Notes under the pieces: generated by a model
Told to the model about the DNA's origin: nothing
The model's database searches: none
Seen by the model: only the letters and a program-made list of their open reading frames with translations
Shown here: piece after piece, positions 3,720 to 23,919 of the stretch
How the letters are laid out: the number at the start of each line of letters is the position of its first letter
How positions within the stretch are numbered: position 1 is the stretch's first letter
Translations under genes and position numbers: made by a program
Source of the DNA: a bacterium
GTDB lineage: Bacteria; UBP14; UBA6098; JAFGQG01
Assembly (NCBI GenBank): GCA_016930435.1
Contig: JAFGGQ010000117.1
Coordinates: 1 to 36,564 of the forward strand
DNA length: 36,564 nucleotides
Direction: 5' to 3'

Positions 3720-3792
3720 GGGGCCTTAGCTCAACTGGGAGAGCATTACGCTGGCAGCGTAATGGTTAGGGGTTCGAGTCCCCTAGGCTCCA
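3720..3792 (+). tRNA. tRNA-Ala, anticodon GGC
   Basis: The 73-base sequence folds as a complete cloverleaf. The 7-bp acceptor stem (GGGGCCT with AGGCTCC) has one G-U pair. The D arm is GCTC/GAGC, the anticodon arm TTACG/CGTAA with loop CTGGCAG, and the T arm AGGGG/CCCCT with loop TTCGAGT. The anticodon GGC reads alanine codon GCC. The discriminator base is A, and the terminal CCA is not encoded, so it must be added after transcription. The next protein gene starts 80 bases downstream with no visible terminator in between. Confidence 0.95.
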
Positions 3793-3812: not shown

Positions 3813-3896
3813 AGGGGAATTAATCCAGGTTTGCAGTTATTTTTGTGATAGAACGAGAACTTTAAATTCTGTATGATAGAGATGAATAATTCCCCT
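3813..3896 (+). repeat. 10-bp perfect inverted repeat spanning the start of the PorU-like gene
   Basis: AGGGGAATTA (3813-3822) is the exact reverse complement of TAATTCCCCT (3887-3896). The arms flank both candidate start codons (3873 and 3882), and the right arm lies inside the first codons. In mRNA they could pair and enclose the translation start in a 64-base loop. Whether this regulates translation is inference. Confidence 0.45.
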
Positions 3897-7776: not shown

Positions 7777-10245
7777 ATGAAGCGGTTAACCTTGTACATG
7801 ACCTTGGTTGTTCTTATGCTTATTACGGTATTGGGTTCGACGGTCTTAGCCGATCGTTCCCGGGCGGGAGTATTATTTCTTTTAATCGGGCCCGGAGCCA
7901 GGCCTACCGGCATGGGTGAAGCATTTTCGGCCATCGCCGATGATGCTACTGCTACTTACTGGAATCCCGCCGGATTAGGTTTGTATCCACTATCCAGTAA
8001 ATGGTACGATTTTAAAGCCCCTAATGGTGAAAGCATTACAGCTATGGGTTTGACCAAAGGAAGCCTCTTTCAGCAAGGCTATAAAAAACACCAATTATGG
8101 ATAGCCACCGATGAGAACCTCTACTATCTTGATAAAGAAGAATGGAAGGACCATGAAGAATATGTAACCATTGAGGGCGAAACCCTGATGGATATCATCA
8201 AATCTTATCTGACCCCCGGAAAAATTGATACTATGGAGATTATCCGCTCTATTGGTCCCAAAGTTATCGAGTTTAACAATTTAAATGTTGTCGATAATGA
8301 AAATGTCAGGGCTTTCGGGATCAATGATTCACTCCCATCGGATATCAAATTGAAAATACCCTTTTTCGCCTTTATCTCCGATAAGATAACCAGCCTTTGC
8401 ATAAGTGAAGGCAAAACCATCTGGGTAGGCAGCGAGAAGGGTCTATATAAGTATAAGGACTACTGGGAAAAGGTTTCCGAGAACGACGGTCCCGGCGACA
8501 ACTACATCAATGATGTGATCGAGGATGAAGGAGGGGGCTTATGGGTTTGCACAAAAAAGGGCCTTTTCATCAAGCGGGGAGGAAAATGGTATAAGTACAC
8601 TACTTCAGAGGGCATCCCCGGAACCGAAATTGATGAGCTATTCGTGATCTCTCCTTATAAGGCCTGGGTAAGCTCGGGCAGGAATGTGGCCTTTTTCGAT
8701 GGCAAACAATGGAACCGGGAATACAGCTATACAATAAAACCAGGCGCTACATGGTTGGAGATTGCTTCTGATATCTTCCCTGTTAAAAGCAACCGGAAAA
8801 AGGAGCTTATCGCCGCTGAATTAATGGCTGCCAACAATGTTCAAGATCCCGAATTCACACAATCACCTGTATCTGATAAAATCGTTGTACCCTACCGGCT
8901 GGCTTTTGAAGGCACCGTTAATAGCATTTATGCCGATAATAAAACCGGGAATACCTGGTTTGGATCCGAATATGGAATAAAACGGTTCGATGGGCAAGTT
9001 TGGAACTTCTATGGTTTCAGCGAGGAAAAGATCAATAGCAATACCACTTTTTTAGACTGGGTAAAAAGCAAATGGAGTGACCTTACACATACTGCTCAGG
9101 AAGAACTTGCTGAAAAAATCAGGATCTATAACCAGCTCAATGAGCAGAATATTGATGCGCAAACCATTATCGAATATCCAGCCAGTCCGGCCAGCGCTAA
9201 TATAAATGAAATAATTGAGGGACCCAGCCGGAAGATAATAATCGGTAGTGAATATGGCACCCTTGTATATAAGGAAAGTGAAGATAACTTTAAATATTAC
9301 GATCAGTCCGGCCTTCATGAAAAAGAAGCTCTCAAGATCGTTTCGATGGGAAAGGACTTCTGGTTCCAGTTCGACGATGAGATTAAGATCTACACTAAGG
9401 GGAACAAAGAGTTAACCTTTATGCATGTGCAGTGGTTACCTACTCTTGCCGATGATATCTATTATGAATTTTTCTCCAGCACCTATTACCTTGAGGGATG
9501 GGGCACCCTGGGCGGCAGCATTATTTTCATCTCCGAAGGTGAAAACATCTGGACCGATGAAAGCGGAAATGTACTGGGAACATTTCAATCCTACGAACTG
9601 GCAGTGGGATTATCTTACGGAACCGCCATACTGGATAAATTAGCGCTGGGTTTGAACTTCAAAGTTATACACAGTCATCTGGTTCCCAGGCAAGTAACCG
9701 TGGGCGGGGAACAGGGCGAAGGCGTCGCTACTGTTTTTGCCGTGGATGGCGGACTCCATTATCAGCTCCCCCTTAAAGGACTCACAATGGGCTTGACCGT
9801 TCAAAATATCGGCCCTTCCATTCATTACATTGATTATGAACAGAGAGACCCGCTCCCCAGAAATCTTAAACTGGGCCTTGCATACCGGATACTGGATTCT
9901 GATTTCAACCGCCTTACAATCGCGACTGATTTTAACAAGGACCTTATAGACCTGGGGAATGATCCTTTAAACCGGGAATTACGTGAGATGGTTAAAAATA
10001 TCGGGGTAGAATATACTTACTCTAACCTGATTTCATTGAGAGGCGGCTATCTGATAGATTACGACTATCATTACGAACCCGGCGATGATGAATGGGTAGG
10101 CACCCATTACATGACCTTTGGAGCCGGTATTAAATATTCCAACTATCAGTTTGATTTCTCCTATGTCCCGGAGCATACAGGCGCGGATGAAAGTACATTA
10201 CCCCTCTCAAACATCATGCGATTCTCATTGCTGGCAAGGTTTTAA
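7777..10245 (+). CDS. PorV-family outer-membrane protein with an inserted beta-propeller
   Basis: An 822-residue outer-membrane protein with a signal peptide (about 1-25). Residues 28-72 match the start of PorV/PorQ proteins (LLIGPGARPTGMGEAF, then DDATATYWNPAGL). The family pattern resumes only near residue 549 (HVQWLPTLADDIYYEF, EGWGTLGGSI) and continues as barrel to the terminal Phe, with PLPRNLKLGLAY and the NIGPSIHYID stretch. Between them lie about 470 extra residues with seven propeller-like repeats of the W-V/I-G/A-S/T-x-x-G-L type, near residues 107, 215, 255, 296, 393, 487 and 528. These resemble the periplasmic propellers of hybrid two-component sensors. PorV carries T9SS cargo to the PorU sortase, and the PorU-like gene ends 28 bases upstream. 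A strong AGGAGGT ribosome binding site lies at 7764-7770. The propeller insertion is unusual for PorV and could add a binding surface. Confidence 0.82.
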   Translation: MKRLTLYMTLVVLMLITVLGSTVLADRSRAGVLFLLIGPGARPTGMGEAFSAIADDATATYWNPAGLGLYPLSSKWYDFKAPNGESITAMGLTKGSLFQQGYKKHQLWIATDENLYYLDKEEWKDHEEYVTIEGETLMDIIKSYLTPGKIDTMEIIRSIGPKVIEFNNLNVVDNENVRAFGINDSLPSDIKLKIPFFAFISDKITSLCISEGKTIWVGSEKGLYKYKDYWEKVSENDGPGDNYINDVIEDEGGGLWVCTKKGLFIKRGGKWYKYTTSEGIPGTEIDELFVISPYKAWVSSGRNVAFFDGKQWNREYSYTIKPGATWLEIASDIFPVKSNRKKELIAAELMAANNVQDPEFTQSPVSDKIVVPYRLAFEGTVNSIYADNKTGNTWFGSEYGIKRFDGQVWNFYGFSEEKINSNTTFLDWVKSKWSDLTHTAQEELAEKIRIYNQLNEQNIDAQTIIEYPASPASANINEIIEGPSRKIIIGSEYGTLVYKESEDNFKYYDQSGLHEKEALKIVSMGKDFWFQFDDEIKIYTKGNKELTFMHVQWLPTLADDIYYEFFSSTYYLEGWGTLGGSIIFISEGENIWTDESGNVLGTFQSYELAVGLSYGTAILDKLALGLNFKVIHSHLVPRQVTVGGEQGEGVATVFAVDGGLHYQLPLKGLTMGLTVQNIGPSIHYIDYEQRDPLPRNLKLGLAYRILDSDFNRLTIATDFNKDLIDLGNDPLNRELREMVKNIGVEYTYSNLISLRGGYLIDYDYHYEPGDDEWVGTHYMTFGAGIKYSNYQFDFSYVPEHTGADESTLPLSNIMRFSLLARF

Positions 10246-10289: not shown

Positions 10290-13200
10290 GTGGATCATAT
10301 AATAAATAAAAAAGCTGTATTACAGGGATTGCTGATCATGGCGTTGCTATTTTCGTACGGGTTCGCCGCAGCCGGGGAATTACCTTTACCAGATCAGCAT
10401 GAATTCCCCGCCTTTCTCTCTTCCGGCAATGGTTTTACCGATCATCGCTCATCTCAAAATCTCTTTCAGCTAGATCGAGAAGTCCCCTGGGGATTGCCCC
10501 GTGCGCCCCTGAGCACCACAATACACCTCCGGATCTGCGCTATACGTGTGGAATTTCAACCTGATTCCAATCCCCGCAGTACAGGCCCCGGAATATTCGA
10601 TCTCACTCCCTCTGAACACTCACCTACCCCTTTCGATCGAACCCCTCATAATAAATACTACTTCGATTCACAGATGCAAGCCCTTTACAATTATTATCTC
10701 GCTGTGTCTGATAGCCAACTCACACTGGAATGGGATATTTATCCCGAGGAACCGGAAGCAGCTTACCGATTGCCGGACAGCATGGCTTATTACGGCCCGA
10801 GTGGCTGGTTTGGGAATAATATGCTTTACCGTTTATCCGGGTTTTTCAAGGATGGATGGAACCTAGCCTTTGATCAGGATTCCATCGATTTTCGGGATTA
10901 CGATGTATTCCTGCTTTTTCACGCCGGAGCAGACTGGCAAAATGATATCGGCTCATATTACGAAGAATGGGATCCGGAAACCTATGTTCCCAGTCCCGAC
11001 GATCTTCCAACCGCCTTCATTACCTTCTCCCAACCGGTTATAAACGGAATTATCTCGGAGGGTTTGATTATACCCGAATTCGCTTCACAGGACGGCCAGT
11101 ATATTGCTCTTAATGGCTTGCTGACACATGAATTTGGCCATCAACTTGGCCTGGTTGACCTTTATTCTACGTACAACTTCATTACCCAGGTGGGCTATTT
11201 TTCCTTGATGGATAACGGCAATCTCATCGGGGTATGGTTACCCTTCGAAGAGGAAACCCTTGCCGTTTTCGGAGCTATCCCTGCATATCCATCAGCCTGG
11301 GAACGAGCCTATCTGGGCTGGGAAACCATTACCGAATACCAATGCCAGCAGCAAACCTTTAGCCTGACAACCGGTAATCTCTTCAATACCCCTGAAGATA
11401 ATACCATAATGAAAATACCCGTCAACGAATACGAATACTTTTTAATTGAAAACCGGCAATATAATCCGGGGGGAAGCGATGTTTACCTGAAACAGGATAG
11501 CCTTACCGGTGTATTTCTTGGATTAATAGATGAGGCCGATAAATTTACGTCCAAATACGATTATCTTCTCCCGGGATCAGGTTTGCTTATCTGGCACGTT
11601 GATGAGGCGGTCGCTTACATGGATTACGTGGGGAATGGTCAAACTAACTTCGCCAATAATACTCTGCAATGGGACTGGGAAAGGTTGTTCATCGATCTGG
11701 AGGAGGCCGAAGGCCCTCAGGATTTGGGTGTGGTAATCACCTATGGAGATTCGCTGGATTTCTATCACGAGGACAATATAAGCGAGTTCAGTCCTTATAC
11801 TATTCCAAACACCAACAGCAACCTGGGGGGTTTTACCGGTCTGACCATCAGTAACATCTCCGCTCCCGGGGTGATTATGAGTTTTGATATCTCCTCACCG
11901 AACTGTAATCCCGCATCTCACAGGATCACAGGTTGGCCGCTGGAAAAACCCATAGTACTCGCTGATTTCAATGATGACGGGCAGGACGAAATCTTTACGG
12001 TAATGAGCAATTTTGTCCTGGGCTGGACCGGTGATGGAGATAAACTGATCCAAAACGCTGACACGCTTGGGATAATTGGCTTCTCAGGAGACACCGCTCT
12101 GTATCCCTTACCTACATTCTATTACCGTAATAATACCGAATTTACTATTCCCTCACTGGGCGACCTGGACGGGGATGGGACCCTGGAGGTGGCAGCAGGA
12201 GCAGATGACAGCTTTTTATATTGCTGGGAAGTGCAGGACCTTGACTCATCAGGAAGAGCTGATCTCCTTTTAGGCTTTCCATTACGCCTGCAAGGCCGCA
12301 TCTACCTGCCCCCCGTAATAGCCAATTTCGATAATTCAACATCTGAACCCGAGATATTCGTAGGTACATCGAATGGGAAATGGTACATAATCTCTGCTGA
12401 AGCCACAATAATCGATAATGGTGATATCAGGGGCGAGATCCTTGGCGTTATCCCTCGCCCGGATAATTCATTTTATATACTTGCTCAGCAATGGAAAGGA
12501 AAGCTCTTTAAATATAGCCTGGGAGATTCTCTGCTCTGGAGCATAGACCTCGATCATGGATTCCTTTCCACTTTAATAGGGGGTGATATAAACCGTGACG
12601 GGAATCTGGAGCTCGTAACCGTCAGTGAGGAGGGATACCTTTACGTTTTCGACCAGGAAGGCCAGAATTTCGGTAATTTCCCCGTGTTCTTTGAGGAGGT
12701 TTATAACCTTTCTGATCCTCTTTTCTCGGATATAAACGGAGATAGCGACCTGGAAATAATATTCAGCGCGGGTAATAAACTTCACGCTTTCTACCTTAGC
12801 GGATCAACAGTGGAGAACTTCCCTCGCTCTTTTGACAGTACCCTGATAGCTTCACCGATCACGGCTGATCTCGATGCTGATGGCGACCTGGAAATAATCG
12901 TGGGTGGAAGCAACTCCAATCTTTATGCATTTCATCATGATGGCTTACCGGTAGATGGATTCCCATTGGCTTCTGAAGGGATATGGGCTGCAGCTGCCTG
13001 GGGGAAACTTGGAGAAGGGGCATCAAACCAGGTGGTGGCAGGTTCGGTTCAGGGCATATTAATGGTTTGGGATTTTCCGCAGAGTGATGCCCCTAATTGG
13101 CCGATGTGGGGATTTTCTTCTGAACATAATCATACTTTCGATCTGACCTTGCCCGATAATCCCCCTGCTGATAACTCCCATGACCTTATAACATCTTTTT

Positions 13201-13457
13201 ACAATCACCCTAACCCCGCCCAAAACGATACTTATATCCGCTATTACCTGAACCGCCAGGCTGAGCTTACCCTCCGTATTTTCGATCAAACCGGCAATTT
13301 GATCCTGAATAAAATACTCAATGGTTTGGAATCTGAATATAACAGTTACAGATGGGATTCCACCGGAATACCCTCCGGGGTTTACATCTGTCAATTAGAA
13401 GCTAAAAATAACGATAAAACTGAAATCCATTTTTGTAAGATAGCATTAATTAAATAA
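10290..13457 (+). CDS. secreted M6-family metalloprotease with FG-GAP-like repeats and T9SS sorting domain
   Basis: A 1055-residue predicted T9SS cargo protease. The GTG start gives a good signal peptide (about 1-27). The ATG at 10338 would leave too short a one, although no ribosome binding site is visible for the GTG. The zinc site is HEFGHQLGLVD with His 280, Glu 281, His 284 and probable third ligand Asp 290, followed by a Met-turn-like SLMDNGN. This is the pattern of immune-inhibitor-A-like M6 peptidases. From about residue 553 there are at least five calcium-binding-like DxDxDGxxE repeats (near 555, 622, 764, 814 and 860), likely an FG-GAP/VCBS propeller. The final 85 residues form a sorting domain (NHPNPAQND, SGVYICQL, ending KIALIK). 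It lies 44 bases after the PorV-like gene, in the same orientation. Confidence 0.85.
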   Translation: MDHIINKKAVLQGLLIMALLFSYGFAAAGELPLPDQHEFPAFLSSGNGFTDHRSSQNLFQLDREVPWGLPRAPLSTTIHLRICAIRVEFQPDSNPRSTGPGIFDLTPSEHSPTPFDRTPHNKYYFDSQMQALYNYYLAVSDSQLTLEWDIYPEEPEAAYRLPDSMAYYGPSGWFGNNMLYRLSGFFKDGWNLAFDQDSIDFRDYDVFLLFHAGADWQNDIGSYYEEWDPETYVPSPDDLPTAFITFSQPVINGIISEGLIIPEFASQDGQYIALNGLLTHEFGHQLGLVDLYSTYNFITQVGYFSLMDNGNLIGVWLPFEEETLAVFGAIPAYPSAWERAYLGWETITEYQCQQQTFSLTTGNLFNTPEDNTIMKIPVNEYEYFLIENRQYNPGGSDVYLKQDSLTGVFLGLIDEADKFTSKYDYLLPGSGLLIWHVDEAVAYMDYVGNGQTNFANNTLQWDWERLFIDLEEAEGPQDLGVVITYGDSLDFYHEDNISEFSPYTIPNTNSNLGGFTGLTISNISAPGVIMSFDISSPNCNPASHRITGWPLEKPIVLADFNDDGQDEIFTVMSNFVLGWTGDGDKLIQNADTLGIIGFSGDTALYPLPTFYYRNNTEFTIPSLGDLDGDGTLEVAAGADDSFLYCWEVQDLDSSGRADLLLGFPLRLQGRIYLPPVIANFDNSTSEPEIFVGTSNGKWYIISAEATIIDNGDIRGEILGVIPRPDNSFYILAQQWKGKLFKYSLGDSLLWSIDLDHGFLSTLIGGDINRDGNLELVTVSEEGYLYVFDQEGQNFGNFPVFFEEVYNLSDPLFSDINGDSDLEIIFSAGNKLHAFYLSGSTVENFPRSFDSTLIASPITADLDADGDLEIIVGGSNSNLYAFHHDGLPVDGFPLASEGIWAAAAWGKLGEGASNQVVAGSVQGILMVWDFPQSDAPNWPMWGFSSEHNHTFDLTLPDNPPADNSHDLITSFYNHPNPAQNDTYIRYYLNRQAELTLRIFDQTGNLILNKILNGLESEYNSYRWDSTGIPSGVYICQLEAKNNDKTEIHFCKIALIK

Positions 13458-13472
13458 AAGGAGGCTTTTACA

Positions 13473-14384
13473 ATGAAGACCTTATTTCCCCGGATATTTT
13501 TGAGTTGTTCATTTCTCATACTGCTTTTTTCAATATCACATTCTGAGCCCCTTGTTCCGGCGGGAGAAATCCCGGAAAGCTTTAAAAAGGGCTTGTACGA
13601 TTTCCAGAAAAGCTACAACTGGGAATCCGGTGCCCTTGTTCAGATCGAAAGTAGCGGAGATAAAACTGCTCTTTTTTCATCCAGTGAAGTTAAATCGACC
13701 AAAAAAGCCTTCCTTTTTTCGCTGCTCATCCCCGGTTCAGGTGAATACTACTGTAAATCCTGGCTCAAAGGTGGCCTTTTTAGTGCGGCGGAGATAGGTT
13801 TTTGGGTGGCATACTTCAACCTTAACCAGAAGGGCTCCGACAAAACAGGCGAATACGAGACATTTGCAGATGATCATTGGAGTGAGGATAAGTACTGGAC
13901 CTGGTTAATGGGTTCAGGGAAAGACACAACCTGGTGGGAAACTCCTGAAAGCACCTGGGCAACTGAGATTCTTCCCCGCGAAAAGGATCATGACTATTAT
14001 GAAATGATCGGCAAATATGCCTGGTTTATAGTAGGCTGGGATGATTCACCGGATACTTTGATCCCTGATTGGCCCATTATGGTCTCATCGGAACGTGAAG
14101 CTTTCAAGGATAGCCTTGTTCAGATATTCAATCTGGATCTCAGCTACAACCGCTTTTACTATGCATCCTTGCGTAAGCAAGCCAATGATTTTTATTCTAC
14201 TGCCAAGTATTTTATCGGAGCTTCTATTTTAAACCACTTGCTCAGCGCATTTGATGCGGCCTGGACGGCAAAAAGACATAATGACCGCCTCGAAACAAAG
14301 TTCACAAGAGTAGAAGTAAAACCAAGAATCGCCTATCATAATGGTGAACTCTGCCCGGAAATGGTACTGGTGATCAGATTTTAA
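13473..14384 (+). CDS. envelope protein of a PG-G-EYY paralogue family (DUF5683-like), copy 1
   Basis: I do not recognise a characterised family member. The 303-residue protein has a signal peptide (about 1-24). A short hydrophobic segment carries FSLLIPGSGEYY followed by a Gly-rich membrane-like stretch (KGGLFSAAEIGFWVAYF, about 88-125). A second hydrophobic segment (FIGASILNHLLSAFDAAW) lies near residues 248-265, and the chain ends in Phe (VLVIRF), as outer-membrane barrels often do. The PGxGxxY pattern recalls DUF5683-type proteins. The central region is rich in Trp and Asp (WSEDKYWTW, KDTTWWETPESTW). AAGGAGG at 13458-13464 is a strong ribosome binding site right after the preceding stop. 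It is followed after 20 bases by a paralogue, which suggests tandem duplication and a shared envelope role. Confidence 0.7.
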   Translation: MKTLFPRIFLSCSFLILLFSISHSEPLVPAGEIPESFKKGLYDFQKSYNWESGALVQIESSGDKTALFSSSEVKSTKKAFLFSLLIPGSGEYYCKSWLKGGLFSAAEIGFWVAYFNLNQKGSDKTGEYETFADDHWSEDKYWTWLMGSGKDTTWWETPESTWATEILPREKDHDYYEMIGKYAWFIVGWDDSPDTLIPDWPIMVSSEREAFKDSLVQIFNLDLSYNRFYYASLRKQANDFYSTAKYFIGASILNHLLSAFDAAWTAKRHNDRLETKFTRVEVKPRIAYHNGELCPEMVLVIRF

Positions 14385-14404
14385 CTTAACCTGGAATATC
14401 CATT

Positions 14405-15220
14405 ATGCCTTTTTTAAAGACAAAATATCTTTTAATCACACTTTGTTTAGTCATTGTTGGTTTCTGTGCTCACCTGAGAGCAGACGGATTACCTGCTATC
14501 CCCACCGATATTTCCCTTCCCACTTCCCTTAGAAACATTAGTGCCCCATTCCCTCAAATCAGAGCATCAAGATCAACAATTACCTCCTCATTTGACGATA
14601 CCCGCAGTATATTTGAGGACAATGAGGAGGCAAGCAGTCATAAAAAAAAGGTAAGTAAGGCTCTTGTATTCTCTCTATTATTGCCGGGTGCTGGTGAATA
14701 TTATCTTGGTAACAAGAACAACGCCGCCCTCTTTTGGGTGGCTGAAGGGGCTATCTGGTTGACCTTTGCCAGCCTGCAAGTGTATGGACACTGGGAAGAA
14801 GAACGGTATATCTCCTGGGCAATCAGCCATGCCGGTATAATTACTCAGGGTAAAGATAAGGATTACTATCAAAATATCGGACTGTATGATGATATCCAGG
14901 ACTATAATTACTGGACCTATCTCTTTGAACGGGACCAGGACATGCTTTACCCTGAAACTGCTGATTGGTTCTGGAAATGGGACATGCCCGAATCCCGTTA
15001 TTACTACAGGGAACTCCGTCATAATTCCGAAAAAGCCTACCGGAATTCCAATATTGTCATCGGTGTAGCCATCTTAAATCGTTTCCTTAGCGGGATAAAT
15101 GTCCTTCGCCTGGGTCAGCAAACCGAATCTGATGATAAGCTTTTCTCCCTGCACCTCCGTTGTCATCCCACAGACCAGGGAAAGGTAGGTATCAGGATCA
15201 TTCTCTCAAAAGCTTTTTAG
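14405..15220 (+). CDS. envelope protein of the PG-G-EYY paralogue family, copy 2
   Basis: This 271-residue protein parallels its upstream neighbour along most of its length. It has a signal peptide (about 1-26), then KALVFSLLLPGAGEYYLGN and a hydrophobic ALFWVAEGAIWLTFASL (about 82-120). A central Trp/Tyr/Asp-rich part contains KDKDYYQNIGLYDD, echoing KDHDYYEMIGKYAW in copy 1. Then come RYYYRELR (YYASLRK in copy 1) and IVIGVAILNRFLSGIN (FIGASILNHLLSAFD in copy 1), with a C-terminal Phe. No function is known to me. The gene has only a weak ribosome binding site 20 bases after copy 1, so coupling to its translation is plausible. Divergence between the copies is high, so the duplication is old. 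Confidence 0.68.
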   Translation: MPFLKTKYLLITLCLVIVGFCAHLRADGLPAIPTDISLPTSLRNISAPFPQIRASRSTITSSFDDTRSIFEDNEEASSHKKKVSKALVFSLLLPGAGEYYLGNKNNAALFWVAEGAIWLTFASLQVYGHWEEERYISWAISHAGIITQGKDKDYYQNIGLYDDIQDYNYWTYLFERDQDMLYPETADWFWKWDMPESRYYYRELRHNSEKAYRNSNIVIGVAILNRFLSGINVLRLGQQTESDDKLFSLHLRCHPTDQGKVGIRIILSKAF

Positions 15221-15253
15221 ATTATAATCACTTAAATCTCACTAACTAACATT

Positions 15254-16678
15254 ATGGATCGTCAACCCTCGGTCTGCCTGATTAATCCCTGGATAACCGA
15301 TTTTGCCGCATACGATCTCTGGTCAAAGCCACTGGGCCTGCTCTATATCAATAGTTTTCTTAAATCCACTGGATTCAGAACCAGGGTAATCGATTGTCAA
15401 TCGTACGGCTTCGGAAGGTTTCCTTACTGTTTCAGGTCGCTTCATCCCCCCGGAAGAGGCCATATCAGGAAACAGAAAATTCCAAAACCCCCTATCCTGA
15501 ACACATATAAAAGGGATTATTTTCTATATGGCATTCATCCCAAGGACTTTGAATACCATTTAGGGAAAATGGCCTCCTCATTCTCCCCCGACCTGTTTTT
15601 ACTAACCTCCCAGATGACCTACTGGTACCCCGGGATTAAATACACCATCGAGTTCATTCGCAACATTTTTCCACGGATTCCCGTCTTGATCGGTGGCCTT
15701 TACGCTACCTTGCTTACTTCCCATGCCCAAAATAATTTTTCCGATTGTATTATCCTTCCCGGAAATTTTAACCAGGAGCATTTCCGAATCATCTCCCAGT
15801 TCGCGGACTCATCAATCCCCGCCAAGGTGCCTTCTAACCTTCTTGATTTTCCTTATCCATTTCATTATGATTATCCTACTTTAGATGTTCTGCCCCTCCT
15901 GACTTCCCTTGGCTGCCCTCATTCCTGCAGCATTTGCGCTTCCAGAATATTGAATCCTGTTTTTCACCAAAAAGCACCAGGAGAAGTTGTAAAGGAAATA
16001 GTCTATTATATCAAAAATTACAAAATAAAGAGCTTTGCTTTTTATGATGACGCTCTACTGAGCAATGCTGACAAACATATCATCCCGATTATGGAAGGAC
16101 TGCTGAAAAATCGCTATAAGAATATGGTATTTTACGTTCCGAATGGTCTTGAGGTAGCAAACATTGATGCATCACTAGCAAAATTACTTTATCGTTGCGG
16201 TTTTCGAGAATTAAGGCTAAGCTTTGAGGGGTTAAACACCTCTGACATATTCAATAAACCTCTAAATTTAGTGAGTTTCTGCAAAGCAGTGGGTTTTCTC
16301 ATCGAAGCCGGTTTCAGTCCCAAAGATCTCAGGGCTTATATCCTGGTAGGTCATCCCCTCCAGAAAATCGAAGATATCCTGGAATCGGTGTACTGGGTAC
16401 ATAGCCTGGGAATCAGGATCGATATTTCCCATTATGCCCTGGTTCCTGGCACTCCCGGATTTGATCAATATTCTCAGTACACAGACATTGATCCTGCAGA
16501 AGAACCACTTTTTCATAATAACACCCTTTGGAATTGGCGTTTGAAAAACCCATACCCCTGGGAAAAAGCATTCCGTAAACTGGTTAATACTCTCAACCGG
16601 GCTTATCGGGAAGGAGAGGTTCTCGACAGGACCAGTAGCGATATAAGGGAGTACTGGGAAGAATGCATTAATCCCTAA
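15254..16678 (+). CDS. B12-binding-type radical SAM protein
   Basis: A 474-residue cytoplasmic enzyme. The N-terminal 180 residues have the Rossmann-like pattern of cobalamin-binding radical SAM proteins (VCLINPW, KPLGLLYINSFLKSTGF, VLIGGLYATL). The radical SAM motif is GCPHSCSIC, with Cys 221, 225 and 228 binding the 4Fe-4S cluster. SFAFYDDALL and LRLSFEGL follow, as in the rest of the TIM barrel. It is somewhat short and has no extra Cys-rich tail. The substrate is unknown: members of this superfamily methylate or rearrange lipids, peptides and cofactors. Its position between copies of an envelope protein family, 33 bases after one and 67 before another, suggests a role in making or modifying an envelope component. 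That is inference only. Confidence 0.8.
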   Translation: MDRQPSVCLINPWITDFAAYDLWSKPLGLLYINSFLKSTGFRTRVIDCQSYGFGRFPYCFRSLHPPGRGHIRKQKIPKPPILNTYKRDYFLYGIHPKDFEYHLGKMASSFSPDLFLLTSQMTYWYPGIKYTIEFIRNIFPRIPVLIGGLYATLLTSHAQNNFSDCIILPGNFNQEHFRIISQFADSSIPAKVPSNLLDFPYPFHYDYPTLDVLPLLTSLGCPHSCSICASRILNPVFHQKAPGEVVKEIVYYIKNYKIKSFAFYDDALLSNADKHIIPIMEGLLKNRYKNMVFYVPNGLEVANIDASLAKLLYRCGFRELRLSFEGLNTSDIFNKPLNLVSFCKAVGFLIEAGFSPKDLRAYILVGHPLQKIEDILESVYWVHSLGIRIDISHYALVPGTPGFDQYSQYTDIDPAEEPLFHNNTLWNWRLKNPYPWEKAFRKLVNTLNRAYREGEVLDRTSSDIREYWEECINP

Positions 16679-16745
16679 AAATATGTTGCAGAGTTGGCAT
16701 TTTTCCTTAATTTAAAACTTAATATTAAATTTAAAAGGAGGAGAT

Positions 16746-17387
16746 ATGTTGAAAACGATAACGTTAATTTTTCTATGTTTTATCATATTATCCGTGAGTG
16801 AGGTTGTTGGCCAAGTCGGCGGTGATTACTTGAACGAAAATGCCCTGCATCCAGTTCCGCAAGCGATGACCCTGGAAGAATACCGGGATGCCAACCGCCG
16901 AATTAGTGTGGCCTTGCTTCTATCTTCGATTCCTGTGCCCGGTATGGTACATTTCTATGCTGGTGAAGCCAAAACTGGATGGTATCTGGCAGGTGCCTCC
17001 GCACTTGGCATTCTCTCCATAATCTCAGGAGCTGCCCTGATGGATGATAACGAAACCTATAAGGATACCGATTATGGAACCATTGACATCGACGGGATCC
17101 GATATGAAAAGATCCCCTATTCCCTTGAGGATACTACAATTATATATCATTTAAGAATGCTTGAGAAGGAAACCCGAATAGGCGCTGGTCAGGCCGCCCT
17201 CGTTGGATTGGGAGCAATCCTGATCGGAGGTGAGATCCTTTTCGATTGGATACACGGAATATCCATAATAGAAAAAAAACGGGATACTGTCCGTTATAAG
17301 TATGGCCGCCAAATGAGTTTAAGTCTGAAACCAGAATTCGACCCTGAAAATGCTGAACTCAGAGCAAGCCTGATCTGGGAATTTTAA
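16746..17387 (+). CDS. envelope protein distantly related to the PG-G-EYY family, copy 3
   Basis: A 213-residue protein with a signal peptide (about 1-22). The segment RISVALLLSSIPVPGMVHFY followed by AGEAKTGWYLAGASALGILSI (about 52-92) resembles the PG-motif hydrophobic region of the two proteins encoded at 13473 and 14405. A second hydrophobic segment (ALVGLGAILIGGEILFDW) and a C-terminal Phe (LIWEF) complete the same layout. It is shorter and lacks the Trp-rich central insert. A very strong AAGGAGG ribosome binding site (16735-16741) precedes it, in contrast to copy 2. Function unknown. It is the last gene of the plus-strand block and faces the papain-like gene tail to tail. The 183 bases between them hold no clear hairpin terminator. 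Confidence 0.65.
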   Translation: MLKTITLIFLCFIILSVSEVVGQVGGDYLNENALHPVPQAMTLEEYRDANRRISVALLLSSIPVPGMVHFYAGEAKTGWYLAGASALGILSIISGAALMDDNETYKDTDYGTIDIDGIRYEKIPYSLEDTTIIYHLRMLEKETRIGAGQAALVGLGAILIGGEILFDWIHGISIIEKKRDTVRYKYGRQMSLSLKPEFDPENAELRASLIWEF

Positions 17388-17570: not shown

Positions 17571-19067
17571 TTATTTAAGGTAAAAGACCTTCCCTAAATA
17601 GGAATTATGAGGAATGGATACCCGATAAAAATAGATGCCGGAACCTAAATTTACCGGTTCCCAAAGTATTTGTGTTTCCCCATCACTTGCAAAACCTTGG
17701 AAAAGGGTAAATAATTTATCACCCCATATCGAATGGATATCAACTTCAAGAGGTGTTTTGGGGGGTAATTTTAGGGATATCCTTACCATACCGTTGAATG
17801 GGTTAGGGAAGGCTTGGCAATCAATATCAATATTACTGGGAATCTCATTCTCACCGATACCGGTATTGGTAAACATAAAAACATTGTTCGAAGACCATGA
17901 ACCACAGCCATGGCTATTACATCCCCTGGAATGCCAGTAATAAAAACCAAAATCAAGGGTTTCGTCGAAGTAGTAATCACTGGAGGTAAATCCCGAGTCA
18001 GCATAGAGGATATTGTTAAAAAGGAGGTCAGTAGCAAGTTCGAACTGGTAATTCGTAGCATCAGCCACTTCTTCCCAGTTAAAGTTTATGGGGTTATGGT
18101 TAATTACAGCGCTATTGGAGGGATGGAGGAGTTCCGGGAAGCCGTATGGTGGGTAATCCGAGACTTCTACACTCATCAGATCCACTTCTATAAAGCAATT
18201 CCTCCATTTGATCTTAAAGTACCCGTTTTCTCCCCAGTCGGTTCCCCAGCTATTTTTTGCAATCCAGCAGCTATCGTTATTATCATATCCGCAAATCAGT
18301 ATTACATGTCCACCGGAGGCTTCGCCCCATGTATGTTCATAAACTCCCGACTCGTAGTAGAAGAAATCCTCGTAAACCATAAAAGAGGCTGCCAGAGGTC
18401 CTTCCAGGATGGCTTCACGAAGGGGTTCCATAGCGTAACTGAAAACCCATCTATAACTATCAATATATGTTAATCTGGTTTGCCAATCCCGGCAGCGCAG
18501 TGAGCAGTCCACAGGGTAATCAACATAAGGGGCGCATTGTTCATCTACGATACCGTTTGCTTCGATATATTCGGCAGCATAACGGTGCCACCCTCCTTCT
18601 TCGGATCCCGCATCGCTGCAATTCACAAGGTAACTTTCTGAGAGGTCCACGGGTAACTCGCTATTCCCTGCCCGGATCTTGAGTGCGGCTTCGATACAGG
18701 CGCATGCGCCGAAAGCCCAACAGCTTCCCATTCTACCCTGATCGCGAACCGGCCGTACCCAATTCTGACCTTCATAGTCTCGCCAGTCAAAGGCTTCCGG
18801 GGTATCCATTTTGCAGCTGCTACGGACCGCTTCCGGATCCTGCACCCTGAATTCAGGAATGGGCATAAGTTCAGGAATCCGTGAAGGCATTCGGGCGGTC
18901 CATTTCGCCCCCTTCTCACGGATAGAACATTGTATCTGATGCAATTTATCGAGAGAAGGGGTCAGATCATTGTTATCTTTCACCGGATCATCAGTACCTG
19001 CTAATAAAACTGTAGATAAACCCAAAGAAAATATGGTTAATAGCACATAAACGGTCTTAATGAACAT
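17571..19067 (-). CDS. secreted papain-like (C1A) cysteine protease with T9SS sorting domain
   Basis: A 498-residue predicted T9SS cargo. Signal peptide at about 1-23, short propeptide to about 92, then the papain domain (about 93-305). The oxyanion Gln 110 and catalytic Cys 116 lie in DQGRMGSCWAFG, His 254 in SGGHVILICGYD and Asn 272 in KNSWGTDWGENGYFK, so all four key residues are present. An FN3-like segment (about 311-400) contains LLHPSNSAVI. The tail is a sorting domain (AFPNPFNG, GSGIYFYRV, ending KVFYLK). I chose the ATG at 19067 because GGAGA lies 6 bases upstream and the product begins with a clean signal peptide. In-frame starts at 19079 (ATG) and 19088 (TTG) lack a convincing site. 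It lies 153 bases downstream of the beta-helix gene on the same strand but has its own candidate promoter. Confidence 0.88.
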   Translation of the reverse strand: MFIKTVYVLLTIFSLGLSTVLLAGTDDPVKDNNDLTPSLDKLHQIQCSIREKGAKWTARMPSRIPELMPIPEFRVQDPEAVRSSCKMDTPEAFDWRDYEGQNWVRPVRDQGRMGSCWAFGACACIEAALKIRAGNSELPVDLSESYLVNCSDAGSEEGGWHRYAAEYIEANGIVDEQCAPYVDYPVDCSLRCRDWQTRLTYIDSYRWVFSYAMEPLREAILEGPLAASFMVYEDFFYYESGVYEHTWGEASGGHVILICGYDNNDSCWIAKNSWGTDWGENGYFKIKWRNCFIEVDLMSVEVSDYPPYGFPELLHPSNSAVINHNPINFNWEEVADATNYQFELATDLLFNNILYADSGFTSSDYYFDETLDFGFYYWHSRGCNSHGCGSWSSNNVFMFTNTGIGENEIPSNIDIDCQAFPNPFNGMVRISLKLPPKTPLEVDIHSIWGDKLFTLFQGFASDGETQILWEPVNLGSGIYFYRVSIPHNSYLGKVFYLK

Positions 19068-19072
19068 GTTTT

Positions 19073-19077
19073 TCTCC
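19073..19077 (-). promoter_or_regulatory. ribosome binding site deciding the papain-like protease start
   Basis: GGAGA on the minus strand stands 5-6 bases before the ATG at 19067. It overlaps the alternative in-frame ATG at 19079, which favours the inner start. Confidence 0.5.
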
Positions 19078-19123
19078 ATTTCTGTCAAAATAGTACTTAT
19101 TTCAAAATTATTTTATTAATGCA

Positions 19124-19151
19124 AATATACTTTTTGGAATGAAGTAGTCAA
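19124..19151 (-). promoter_or_regulatory. sigma70-type promoter for the papain-like protease gene
   Basis: On the minus strand TTGACT (19151-19146) and TATATT (19129-19124) are 16 bases apart, the same hexamers and spacing as upstream of pcm. Transcription would begin near 19117, giving a leader of about 50 bases. Confidence 0.5.
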
Positions 19152-19220
19152 ACGATTTTTATATGTACAAAAGGCAATCTTCGAAACTCTCTTATTCAAA
19201 CCTGTAGGATGTACTTGTCT

Positions 19221-22200
19221 TTATTTCAACAGAACCGCTTTCCGAATCAGGCTCTGACCACTTGCTTCGATTAAAATAAAATAAACACCGGTAGGCACAT
19301 TTGGTTCGGTCCAAATTTCCTGATACATTCCGGGAGCAAGTTCTTGCGAAACTGGTTGGGCTATGATATTGCCTTTCACATCATAAATTCTGATAGTCAC
19401 CAATCCTGGTTGTGATACCTGATAAAAGAGACTCAGCGCGCTATTGAAGGGGTTCGGGGCAACGGTCAAACCAATATCTTCGGGTAGGTTCCGGGATTTT
19501 AATGCTATAGCTGTTACCCCTTCTCCATAGATGGTAACGACAGGGGTTCCATATTCCGTGAATACCCAAAGGCTTCCCACATAAGTCATTACAAATTCAG
19601 GGGTAAAGATGATTTCAAGCTCAAAGCTCTCTCCACTGGCCAGGTGAGGGACAGCAGCGCTTCTTAGGGTGAACACAGCAGGGTAAACCTTAAGGCTGTC
19701 CACTATTAGCGGGAATCCCCCTTCGTTACTTATGGTGATAAATCCAGATGCGGTAGAGTCCAGTCCGACCTCTTCGAAAAATATCTCTGTATCTGAAAGC
19801 GAAATTTCAGGTGGTCTAAGAGCAATTGCCTGCAGAGCAACATCCTGGGAATCCATGTCTGAAATGAACCAAATAGAACCGCTGTAAAAACCTTCCGATG
19901 CTCCACTGAACCAGACCGCAACGTGGCGGCTTTCTCCTCCTGGTAAAGCTTCAGACAATGTATCGTAAACACTAAAAGCGGGTTCGGTAGTATAAACGCG
20001 CTGGAAATGCAGGGGGAATCCCCCGCTGTTGGTAAGTTCTACATCCCGGCTTACCGGAGTACCTATCAGTACTGAATCGAAATCCAGTTCCATAGGCGAT
20101 ATAGAAAGGATTGGCGGGTTTAAGGCTAATGCCTGCACCGAAATTCCTTGTGTATCCGCATTTGAATAGAGCCATATTTCCCCCTCAAAAAAACCATCTA
20201 TTTCAGATTCAAAGTAAACCTCAAAATCCCTGGAATCACCACCCGGTATCTCCGGAAGAGTGTAATCAGATAATGCAAATGCTGAGTTATTCGATTCCAT
20301 CCGCGTTACAATCAGCGCCAGGTCACCCTCATTGGCTACAGTAATTGAGTAGGCAGACCTTTCACCCACCAGCACCGAGTCAAAGTCAACTGCATAGGTT
20401 GATAACTCCATTGCAGGAGGGAGTAAGGCAACCGCATGCAATGCCACAAATTGGGTATCGTCATTTGAATATACCCACAATGTTTCATGATATACACCTG
20501 CGGTGAAGGGGGTGAAATATATATTTACCTCACGTGAATTATATGGTTCTATTTCAAAAGAGTTTGGGTTAGCTACAAAGCTTAGTGAACTTGCCTGTAT
20601 ATCATAGACGACCAGCGTTGCTCTCCCCTGGTTTGCGATGATTATGCTTAAAGTCGTTTCCTGGAAGCAAGTAACGGTTCCAAAGTCCAGGACAGGTTCC
20701 TCAATAAACATAACAGGCTGTGGGGCATAGGCATAACCTTTAAAAGGAACATAGGTAGTCTCTTGGTCAAAAGCATTTGAGACCACTATAAAGCTATCAG
20801 CTAAGGATCCCTCATCCTCTGGGAAAAAACAAACCGGGATTGATAATGAATCACCCGGGGGGAGTGCTCCTATAACAACAGGATGTTCCAGGCCGAAACA
20901 GGTCCCGTTTAAAAAACCAAGGGATTCAAGATTCAGGGTTTCTATTCCGGTACTGTAAAGAAAAATAGTCATACATGTTGTATCCCCTGTGACAACACTA
21001 TCCCAAACGATTGGAACAGGATGGGAAAAATCCATAGAAGCAGCAATATATTCCCTTGCTCCTACATCCCATCTCCGTCCCTGGGGGCGGCGGTAACCTG
21101 AATAATCCACCGATGGAGACCATATAGTATCCCCCCAACCCAGGAAGATAAATTGAGTGCCGGCATTAACGGCGGGGGAATGCTCCGGGATGTTAAAGAG
21201 TGTGTCAAGGAACTCAGGATCATCATAGAATATACCTCCCCCCCAGTTAATAACACTGCTTTCCGAACCCGAAGAACATTCCGATTGGTTGATATCACAG
21301 TAGGCTACATAAGCGCTGCTTGACCAGTACGGATCTCCTTCCAGGAATATCTCATTTGCTGTATCTGCGCTATTCCCCCAGAACAGGTTGTTGATAACCT
21401 TCGGATCGGAGCCATCAAAGCAATATATCGCCCCTCCCTTGCGGGAATCGTTATATGTAATATTGTTGTTGAATATCAGCGGATTGGCGCGAAAACAGCA
21501 AATTGCTCCCCCATGATAAATAGACTGGTTATCATAGATGAGATTGTTGATAATACTCGGGGCAGAGCTCCCGCAATAGATGCCACCACCACTGGAAAAA
21601 GCATAATTATGAGCGATATAATTAGCCTCGATCTGTGGATTGGATGAGTAGCAATATACCCCTCCCCCATCCTCATTGGACCTGTTACCCACAATTATAT
21701 TATGACTGATTACGGCGGCCGAATTGTCATTACAAATAATACCGCAGCCAATACCGGTTCCGGCAAAATTATTAATGATCCTGTTGTTAGTGATAGTGGG
21801 TTCTGAATAACCCTGACAAAGGATACCTTTCTCGTTAGCTTCGATTGTATTGCCACGGATAAGGCCCCTGGAATTTCCCATACTAATACCCAGCCCAAGG
21901 TTATCATCTATTATATTATCCAGTATGGTCAATTCCGACTGGCTGCAGCGAAGACCTTCTTTATGATTGTACCTGATCACGCTATTTTGGATCATTGCTT
22001 CGGAATAAAAACAGCTAATTCCACCCCCGTGCGGGGAATAATTCTGGGTAATAGTATCCCCTGCAATTATAGGGGATGAATGATCCATAAATATTGCCCC
22101 TCCATGGTCCTCTCCGTAATTCAGGGCTAAGTAGCTTGATTCGATAATCGGATTGGAACCACCCTCACAGCAGATTGCCCCGCCCCGGACTGCATAACAG

Positions 22201-22667
22201 TTGAGAACGGTAAGCCGGCCTAAATATGGACTGCTTTGATAGCAATAAACACCCCCACCGTAATTATCGGGATAACTCCCTAACAGGTTGCCATATTCAA
22301 TTGTGCAATAGAACAGGGAGCATCCTGGGGCGCTTTTGTAAAATTGAAGCCCGTTATGGCCACCCGAACTGTCGGTCAGTACAATATCCTCGGCAGTAAA
22401 TATAATCGGTCTATCTGCAGTACCCAGGGCTTTCAATGTAGCCTGACTGTCAACCTCCAGTTTATAGAAACCTCTGAAAACCAATGTGCACCCAGGTTCA
22501 ACAATAAGGGTTTCCCCGCTGGGAATCCGAATATCACCGTTAATTATATATGGCGAGCCTGAAATCCTCCAAACTCCATTTACCTCACCACCGGTGATTA
22601 TAGTCTCACCTGAAACCGTAGAGATAACGCATAAAAATACTGCCAATATCAGCATTATGTTTCTCAT
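19221..22667 (-). CDS. large secreted beta-helix protein with Hydin-type Ig repeats and T9SS sorting domain
   Basis: A 1148-residue predicted surface protein. Signal peptide (about 1-20), then a right-handed parallel beta-helix (about 30-510) built from short repeats such as GGGVYCY, GGAICCEGGSNPII and GGGIYCGSSAPSIINN. Five Ig-like repeats of about 100 residues follow (about 545-1060), of the ASPM/SPD-2/Hydin or choice-of-anchor type. Their shared signatures are LDFDSVLIG, ISNEGGFPLIV and VYFTPFTAG. The last 80 residues are a sorting domain (APNPFNSAL, PTGVYFILIEASG, ending KAVLLK). No catalytic residues are evident, so a structural, adhesive or glycan-binding role is likely. The ATG at 22667 has a perfect AGGAGG site. 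An in-frame start 60 bases upstream (22727) would add a non-signal N-terminus and is rejected. Confidence 0.85.
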   Translation of the reverse strand: MRNIMLILAVFLCVISTVSGETIITGGEVNGVWRISGSPYIINGDIRIPSGETLIVEPGCTLVFRGFYKLEVDSQATLKALGTADRPIIFTAEDIVLTDSSGGHNGLQFYKSAPGCSLFYCTIEYGNLLGSYPDNYGGGVYCYQSSPYLGRLTVLNCYAVRGGAICCEGGSNPIIESSYLALNYGEDHGGAIFMDHSSPIIAGDTITQNYSPHGGGISCFYSEAMIQNSVIRYNHKEGLRCSQSELTILDNIIDDNLGLGISMGNSRGLIRGNTIEANEKGILCQGYSEPTITNNRIINNFAGTGIGCGIICNDNSAAVISHNIIVGNRSNEDGGGVYCYSSNPQIEANYIAHNYAFSSGGGIYCGSSAPSIINNLIYDNQSIYHGGAICCFRANPLIFNNNITYNDSRKGGAIYCFDGSDPKVINNLFWGNSADTANEIFLEGDPYWSSSAYVAYCDINQSECSSGSESSVINWGGGIFYDDPEFLDTLFNIPEHSPAVNAGTQFIFLGWGDTIWSPSVDYSGYRRPQGRRWDVGAREYIAASMDFSHPVPIVWDSVVTGDTTCMTIFLYSTGIETLNLESLGFLNGTCFGLEHPVVIGALPPGDSLSIPVCFFPEDEGSLADSFIVVSNAFDQETTYVPFKGYAYAPQPVMFIEEPVLDFGTVTCFQETTLSIIIANQGRATLVVYDIQASSLSFVANPNSFEIEPYNSREVNIYFTPFTAGVYHETLWVYSNDDTQFVALHAVALLPPAMELSTYAVDFDSVLVGERSAYSITVANEGDLALIVTRMESNNSAFALSDYTLPEIPGGDSRDFEVYFESEIDGFFEGEIWLYSNADTQGISVQALALNPPILSISPMELDFDSVLIGTPVSRDVELTNSGGFPLHFQRVYTTEPAFSVYDTLSEALPGGESRHVAVWFSGASEGFYSGSIWFISDMDSQDVALQAIALRPPEISLSDTEIFFEEVGLDSTASGFITISNEGGFPLIVDSLKVYPAVFTLRSAAVPHLASGESFELEIIFTPEFVMTYVGSLWVFTEYGTPVVTIYGEGVTAIALKSRNLPEDIGLTVAPNPFNSALSLFYQVSQPGLVTIRIYDVKGNIIAQPVSQELAPGMYQEIWTEPNVPTGVYFILIEASGQSLIRKAVLLK

Positions 22668-22673
22668 TTTGAT

Positions 22674-22679
22674 CCTCCT
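22674..22679 (-). promoter_or_regulatory. ribosome binding site fixing the beta-helix protein start
   Basis: AGGAGG on the minus strand lies 6 bases before the ATG at 22667. It selects this start over the longer in-frame reading that begins at 22727. Confidence 0.75.
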
Positions 22680-22729
22680 ACACCCCTTAAAGGCAATTAT
22701 GGAACTAAATTCCACATTTGATTCCACGT

Positions 22730-22992: not shown

Positions 22993-23919
22993 ATGGGTTT
23001 ATTCAAGAAAAAGAAACTGGAAACTTCATTAATAAAAACGCGAACCACCCTGTTAGGCAAGATCGGTGAATTAGTTGGCCTTAACCGTAATATCGACCGT
23101 GATTTTCTTGATGCGCTGGAGGAGGTTTTAATTACTTCAGACCTGGGGGTTAAAGCAACCATTGAGATAATAGAGGACCTTCAGGACAAGGTTAAACAGT
23201 CCCGCCTTCGCAGTTCTGAGGATATCTATGATGCCCTGAAAAATGAGCTGAAGCGCATCCTTATTTACCGGGACAACTCCCCTGCCGAGACCCGGTGTAG
23301 CCCTTACGTGGTTACTTTTGTAGGTGTTAACGGTACAGGAAAAACCACAAGTATCGCCAAATTTGCATACCGACTCAAACAAAGCGGGAAGCGAATTCTG
23401 CTGGTAGCTGCTGACACCTTTCGGGCAGCAGCCCAGGAGCAGTTAAGTCAATGGGCTCAAAGGTATGATATCACTGTTGTGAACAGCCAGGCTGGTTCTG
23501 ATTCGGCTGCAGTAGCCTTCGATGCATTAGAGAAGGCTCTGGCCCAGAAGTATGAATATGTACTCGTCGATACAGCAGGGCGCCTGCATACCAAGAGTAA
23601 CCTTATGGAAGAGCTCAAAAAACTTAACCGGGTAATGGCCAAAAAAATCCCCGGCGCTCCTCATGAAACCCTTCTGGTCCTGGATGCCACTACCGGTCAG
23701 AATGGAATTCAACAGGCTCTGGCCTTCAATCAGGCTTTGAATCTTACCGGTATATTTTTGACTAAATTGGATGGCACCGCTAAAGGGGGAATCGTCCTTG
23801 CCATTAAAAAGGAACTGGACATACCGGTGAAATATGTGGGCACCGGTGAAAAGATCGAAGACATGGTGGAATTCGATCCGGAAGAGTTCGTCGAGGACAT
23901 CTTCAGGGTTAAATCATGA
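22993..23919 (+). CDS. ftsY: signal recognition particle receptor FtsY
   Basis: FtsY is the membrane-associated SRP GTPase that docks ribosome-nascent chain complexes at the Sec translocon. The 308-residue form beginning MGLFKKKK holds a basic N-terminus and the N domain (about 10-95), then the G domain. The G domain shows GVNGTGKTT (111-119), DTFRAAA (141-147), DTAGR (193-197), TKLD (257-260) and GTGE (283-286). The long acidic A domain of enterobacterial FtsY is absent, as in many bacteria. I chose the ATG at 22993 because GAGGG lies 7 bases upstream. The in-frame extension back to 22810 is low-complexity and unlike FtsY. Its stop overlaps the next gene in an ATGA, indicating an operon. GTTGGQ-type Ffh features and the M domain are absent, so it is not Ffh. 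Confidence 0.95.

Follow-up and report, generated by a model that had tools for sequence, protein, structure and literature searches.

A two-gene pair of DUF5683-like envelope proteins linked to T9SS genes across several FCB phyla

The window (the whole 36,564-nucleotide stretch of DNA that was analysed) carries genes for two DUF5683-like envelope proteins, PG1 and PG2, followed by genes for a B12-type radical SAM protein and for PG3 (Table 1). All four lie on the same strand behind genes for PorU, a PorV fusion and an M6-like protein, with 15 bases between M6 and PG1 and gaps of 20, 33 and 67 bases for PG1/PG2, PG2/radical SAM and radical SAM/PG3, respectively. Coordinates and profile matches agree here with an earlier, sequence-only reading of this DNA, in which four genes of common direction had been described behind the PorU, PorV and M6 genes at gaps of 15-67 bases and a radical SAM gene had been placed between PG2 and PG3; the open reading frame at this position matches radical SAM and B12-binding-like N-terminal profiles.

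Table 1. Genes of the block in the window, and protein X from other phyla.
Feature	Position	Strand	Evidence
PorU, T9SS sortase, C25 family with CTD	3873-7748	+	NF033707, 625 bits (cut-off 420); Peptidase_C25, 1.4e-68
PorV-family barrel (residues 541-821) with fused N-terminal part, Reg_prop propeller repeat	7777-10245	+	NF033709, 232.7 bits (cut-off 90); Reg_prop, 1.8e-7
M6-like protein, FG-GAP repeats, T9SS tail	10290-13457	+	NF052323, 395 bits (below cut-off of 600); zinc motif HEFGHQLGLVD intact
PG1, DUF5683-like envelope protein, 303 aa	13473-14384	+	DUF5683 matches among orthologues
PG2, DUF5683-like envelope protein, PG1 paralogue, 271 aa	14405-15220	+	hhalign to PG1
B12-type radical SAM protein, 474 aa, family-specific insertion	15254-16678	+	Distribution and contexts of the family
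PG3, 213 aa, signal-peptide-like start and three further hydrophobic segments	16746-17387	+	Profile comparisons with PG1 and PG2
X protein, between M6-like gene and PG1 in other phyla	L148 7879-10908; L145 7544-10759; L146 6997-10053		

The PorU sortase and the PorV shuttle of a T9SS are both present in the window, each above its cut-off (NF033707 and NF033709); the PorV equivalog NF033710 gave 154.3 bits on the same barrel, below its cut-off of 250. CTD-bearing cargo is present as well, with Por_Secre_tail matches in the ORFs at 10290, 3873, 17571 (-), 19221 (-) and 31234, those at 3873 and 17571 being under the Pfam gathering score. The gene downstream of the block is convergent and encodes a papain-family protein with a weak T9SS tail. 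A NosD/HYDIN-Ig protein has a T9SS tail match as well; the two are encoded at 17571-22727 on the - strand and are likely cargo adjoining the block.

The N-terminal part of the PorV fusion comprises ~530 aa, and the fusion measures 806-827 aa throughout the host phylum; stand-alone PorV proteins of 348-451 aa are found in the other phyla read. Further features of the window are a tRNA gene (3720-3792) a short way upstream of porU, one ORF encoding two ABC ATPase domains, both of energy-coupling-factor type (1970-3448), and a second radical SAM protein, in which Radical_SAM_N2 and DUF2344 domains were recognised (23916-26522). A search for 16S rRNA in the window genome gave no hit.

Gene order in the host phylum and in other phyla

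The host phylum was sampled with 17 genomes from four families (f1 to f4), including the window genome (G000) and its f1 relative (G011). Profile searches found PG2 in 16 of the 17 genomes and PG1 in 15, with at least one of the two in every genome; PG1 was missing from G003, where none was found, and from G013, where the match was to its PG2 only. The full order PorU, PorV fusion, M6, PG1, PG2 is present in seven genomes (G000, G011, G014, G015, G016, G001 and G002), and M6-PG1-PG2 stands at a contig end in G012. Conservation of gene order, which had been named as a check on the sequence-only reading, was found for this PorU-to-PG2 core in three of the four families (f1, f2 and f4), but the radical SAM gene and PG3 belong to the block only in G000 and G011.

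Of the 15 genomes in which PG1 was found, 11 have M6 immediately ahead of it (ten by reading, G008 by coordinates). Elsewhere, an ORF separates the two (G005), a divergent gene takes the place of M6 upstream of PG1 (G009), M6 and PG1 are found on different contigs (G004), or 616 bases are all that is visible upstream of PG1 (G010). Family f3 is exceptional, as an ORF of 1064-1518 aa splits PG1 from PG2 in G005, G009 and G010.

The PG1 profile was also run against 19 genomes from other groups, and matched in 12 at E up to 0.001 and in 10 at <1e-20. All of these 10 genomes contain the M6-like family. The family was not found in seven of the 19, where PG1 was represented by one weak match confined to the hairpin (G029, 1.8e-4). 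The pair lies behind PorV, the M6-like gene and a further gene, X, in KSB1-type and Latescibacterota genomes; in Marinimicrobia PG1 is present at that place and PG2 is absent.

Ten stretches from other phyla were read, leaving out G032, whose weak PG1 match is located where the M6 contig ends. The series PorV-M6-X-PG1 occurs on one contig in five of them (G019, G020, G023, G027, G028), with an extra ORF of 236 aa between M6 and X in G023. In G030 the series is M6-X-PG1, and in G025 X stands before PG1 where the contig ends. The G024 and G031 stretches open with PG1; in G018, PG1 is located at a contig end, and M6 is missing from the 4.5 kb upstream of it. PG2 directly follows PG1 in seven of the ten (G020, G023, G024, G027, G028, G030, G031); in G019 and G025 other genes follow PG1, and in two Marinimicrobia stretches no PG2 adjoins it. 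X, which is absent from the window's block, is a conserved protein of ~1000 aa; its domain matches are to Peptidase_MA and the PD40 propeller, joined in a single copy by one to Omp85. Its copies in L140, L143 and L144 match by BLAST, while that in L147 was assigned by size and place only.

The motif HEFGH of the M6-like protein is kept in nine host-phylum sequences including that of the window. Five full-length orthologues of other phyla (L144-L148) are without HExxH, a loss which matches the 'inactivated' in the name of the NCBI family NF052323 (T9SS-dependent M6-like inactivated metalloprotease). The window protein is related to NF052323 at both ends of the profile, but it stays below the cut-off and has an intact zinc motif where the relatives in other phyla have lost theirs; six other genomes contain an M6-like protein over the 600 bits. 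Taken together, PG1 and PG2 form a conserved two-gene pair, linked to T9SS genes across several FCB phyla and not previously named.

PG1 and PG2 and the DUF5683 family

That PG1 and PG2 are paralogues, as the sequence-only reading had it, was borne out by hhalign comparison of the two profiles (99.7%, E 1.5e-25) and again with deeper alignments including other phyla (99.8%, 2e-30). Both proteins have signal-peptide-like N-termini. They share with DUF5683 (PF18935) a PG-turn hairpin, a helix behind it that bears an acidic residue, and an aromatic-rich strand at the C-terminus. The window copies do not reach the gathering score of this family (26.7), with 21.5 bits for PG1 and 12.9 bits for PG2; at E up to 0.1, DUF5683 matched 13 of 13 PG1 orthologues and 8 of 16 PG2 orthologues (best E 6.7e-6). 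A canonical DUF5683 protein of 169 aa is encoded elsewhere in the window genome (L098 14627-15136, G000:C122; 61.6 bits), and the profiles of PG1 (95.9%, 6.4e-9) and PG2 (93.1%, 3.1e-7) align with it in the hairpin region only. Because the window copies are below the gathering score, PG1 and PG2 are classed here as relatives within the DUF5683 superfamily and not as members. They differ from DUF5683 in an extra Trp/Tyr-rich middle region, in the restriction of the match to the hairpin, and in being tied to T9SS genes.

A C-terminal Phe had been ascribed to PG1, PG2 and PG3 alike. This holds for PG2 (15 of 16) and partly for PG1, of which 13 C-termini comprise six Phe and four Trp, with one of the other three cut by a contig end; it does not hold for the complete PG3 relatives L107 and L108.

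A first model of PG1 (pLDDT 57.7) gave nothing in a fold search. The second model, based on 19 sequences, reached a mean pLDDT of 73.9 with core helices >90. It predicts a half helix (76-85), a Pro-Gly turn, helices at 97-135 and 225-275, and strands at 279-289 and 292-302; the Trp/Tyr-rich middle part lies between the hairpin and the second long helix, and the closing two-stranded beta-hairpin usually ends in Phe or Trp. The best Foldseek hit of this model was the periplasmic domain of GldM, which was not significant (E 0.32, TM-score 0.13), and VIA returned unrelated helical proteins (best Z 6.9 on 103 residues). Sequence searches of the PDB gave no match for PG1 at E up to 1 and chance-level matches only for PG2 and PG3. 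As far as the model goes, the fold searches neither show a new fold nor exclude a known one. Hydropathy of PG1 is weak, with no 19-residue window >1.2 past the signal peptide.

PG1 was aligned in A4 (10 of the 13 PG1 orthologues and 9 others) and PG2 in A5 (8 of the 16 PG2 orthologues and 6 others). All 19 PG1 sequences have Glu at position 107 (E107), and all 14 PG2 sequences have Glu or Asp at the corresponding position. Since the canonical DUF5683 protein of the window genome also has Glu at the equivalent position, the comparison favours a structural role for this residue.

In view of this kinship, PG1 and PG2 might be ordinary DUF5683-like proteins with a general role in the envelope, in which case an old and stable block would explain their T9SS neighbourhood and they would have no part in secretion. 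DUF5683 is indeed a general family, its canonical member lies on another contig of the window genome, and this member shares both the conserved acidic residue and the C-terminal aromatic-rich strand. However, the block has been broken and rebuilt, in that X may be there or missing, PorV may be fused or stand alone and large ORFs may intervene, and yet PG1 stays by M6 in several phyla. Moreover, PG1 and PG2 have a long middle region of their own, and hhalign to the canonical protein covers just 43-48 columns. We regard such a general role as unlikely, albeit deserving serious consideration.

Translocon and motor components

The T9SS has been described from Bacteroidota with a proton-driven GldLM motor. 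The window genome shares with that system PorU, a PorV-family barrel, SprA and CTD-bearing cargo, but its PorV is fused to a propeller-bearing part and its block contains the M6-like gene together with PG1 and PG2. The SprA/Sov translocon of the window genome scored 646.1 bits with its neighbours in frame, over the cut-off, and SprA (TIGR04189) was found in 27 of all 36 genomes, 25 of them over the cut-off. The nine SprA-negative genomes are the seven without the M6-like family and the drafts G008 and G011 (83% and 89% completeness). The Marinimicrobium G021 has SprA and is without PG1.

None of the profiles for the GldL/GldM motor and the GldN ring protein reached its cut-off in the 36 genomes, a difference from the Bacteroidota T9SS which is to be read with the lack of a positive control in mind: GldM was found in none, a result that without such a control does not prove it absent, GldL gave four weak matches and GldN one. 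The available parts of several reviews and surveys describe the T9SS with a GldLM motor, in Bacteroidota or in the FCB group (PMC11205867, PMC9127263, PMC4793230), and no motor analysis was found in the parts available of PMC8542988 and PMC6851124. A literature search, from which preprints and most subscription journals were left out, found no link between DUF5683 and the T9SS; one paper, on nematode receptors, was found to mention DUF5683.

One might suppose that the T9SS of FCB bacteria outside Bacteroidota operates without GldLM and GldN and that PG1/PG2, the M6-like protein and, in other phyla, X constitute a transenvelope replacement for the motor. We consider this quite improbable. Very improbable is also that PG1 and PG2 themselves replace GldL/GldM, as a membrane pair in which the invariant acidic residue of a membrane helix couples proton flow to export. 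The Gld results in a set of genomes of which 27 have SprA, and the invariance of E107 and of its acidic counterpart in PG2, would suit this idea. However, the same acidic residue is found in the canonical DUF5683 protein, the surrounding helix has only weak hydrophobicity (mean 0.84 and 0.68), and the PG1 model has no significant structural match to GldL or GldM; with no positive control ringing for the Gld families, diverged versions could have escaped detection.

The radical SAM gene, PG3 and the proposed role of the pair

The radical SAM protein has the iron-sulfur cluster motif of its superfamily, CxxxCxxC, with C221, C225 and C228 invariant in 52 of 52 family sequences; its Pfam matches to the radical SAM and B12-binding-like domains (3e-6 and 1.2e-6) are both under the gathering score. 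In this motif and in the B12-like N-terminus it resembles B12-binding radical SAM enzymes such as the Sden_1168 P-methyltransferase (NF038361). However, it scored above the cut-off of no named NCBIfam equivalog (best NF038361, 60.5 bits against 575), and represents a family of its own with a conserved NPWxTDF start. It had no match in the PDB at E up to 0.001.

Five of the 17 host-phylum genomes contain the enzyme, two of them within the block (G000, G011) and three elsewhere, with PG3 not found (G003, G005, G008). PG3 was likewise found in five, within the block in the same two and elsewhere, with the enzyme not found, in G013, G014 and G016. A scan of named genomes yielded 51 enzyme loci, in Thermodesulfobacteriota, Myxococcota, KSB1, Fidelibacterota, Aminicenantes, Omnitrophota and others. 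They had no PG1, PG2 or PG3 profile match, and the profiles of PorU, PorV fusion and M6 gave 2, 1 and 1 matches, respectively (E 1e-11 to 1e-7). Loci of the host phylum and named loci did not match at the nucleotide level. Directly upstream lies mnmE in 9 of the 51 and directly downstream an MBL-fold gene in 10, these names coming from reading of the cluster sequences and not from a family search; in several Thermodesulfobacteriota (L036 8553-11994 and similar loci) the enzyme family lies between the two. In the enzyme tree, from which the partial copies L104 and L079 and the loci L072 and L077 (no full ORF clustered) were left out, the two f1 enzymes stand on a separate 100/100 branch and do not group with those of f3 in the host phylum.

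On distribution, context and tree, the enzyme was rejected as a part of the system. Its distribution and the contexts of the 51 loci indicate that it is most likely a housekeeping B12 radical SAM enzyme, uncharacterised and with no substrate assigned, which lies in the block by chance in f1. Given the mnmE and MBL-fold neighbours, a tRNA-related substrate is possible.

PG3 had been seen as a distant third relative of PG1 and PG2, a kinship which four profile comparisons did not demonstrate. The probabilities were 0.7% with the PG1 profile, 18% with the PG2 profile, 42.5% with a deeper PG2 profile (E 2.6e-4, over 31 PG-turn columns) and 0.4% for the PG3 profile against DUF5683, and Pfam DUF5683 had no match in five of five PG3 family members at E up to 1. 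Although PG3 does have hydrophobic segments and a PG turn, such features are common, and a third paralogue was rejected as unproven. Outside f1, at L107 1501-2759 and L108 1486-2747, PG3 is followed with a 4-base overlap by an ORF of ~210 aa without Pfam match.

That the enzyme modifies the PG proteins or a lipid and that the four genes act as one module is hardly credible: the shared strand, the short gaps and the order kept in G011, where enzyme and PG3 overlap by 8 bases, would fit, but the enzyme was not found in 12 of the 17 genomes, nearly all of which have PG1 and PG2, PG3 was not found in 12 either, outside f1 each is found without the other, and the 51 named loci have other neighbours and none of the PG genes. 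An enzyme-based module is unsupported for these reasons and because enzyme and PG3 lie in the block in just two of the 17 genomes; both genes are probably late local insertions in f1 and not part of the system. Where the sequence-only reading had suggested an undescribed envelope modification or export accessory module, what stands is thus the PG1+PG2 pair, as it is found behind T9SS genes in further families and phyla; the radical SAM gene and PG3 drop out. A four-gene envelope modification module is not real.

We propose, with a probability of roughly 0.6, that PG1 and PG2 are accessory parts of the T9SS apparatus in FCB bacteria outside Bacteroidota. The proposal draws on the conserved gene order, the spread of PG1/PG2, the co-occurrence of PG1 with M6, the PorV-M6-X-PG1 linkage, the presence of SprA in 27 of 36 genomes, and the PG1 model. 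It has to be set against the rearranged f3 genomes (G005, G009, G010), G018, G021, the two Marinimicrobia without PG2, the occurrence of DUF5683 away from the T9SS, the weak hydropathy and the lack of a solved relative; linkage of the pair to the T9SS is, moreover, not function.

In such an accessory role, PG1 and PG2 would be Sec-exported envelope proteins that work jointly, probably as a hetero-oligomer. The PG-turn helical hairpin may dip into a membrane, the C-terminal beta-hairpin may face or enter the outer membrane, and the PorV shuttle, with PorU and the M6-like surface protein, could be docked or stabilised by the pair. Unrelated work would fall to the radical SAM enzyme and to PG3, whose genes were inserted further downstream in a single family. 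The pair is probably a two-protein envelope adaptor for the PorV/PorU/M6 outer-membrane apparatus, of which we are less sure than of the accessory role as such.

If translocon, sortase and shuttle work elsewhere with different conserved accessories, it becomes testable which parts of the system are essential and what powers export. PG1 and PG2 would be handles for this question and, should the proposal be true, DUF5683, to which no function has been assigned, would gain a biological setting.
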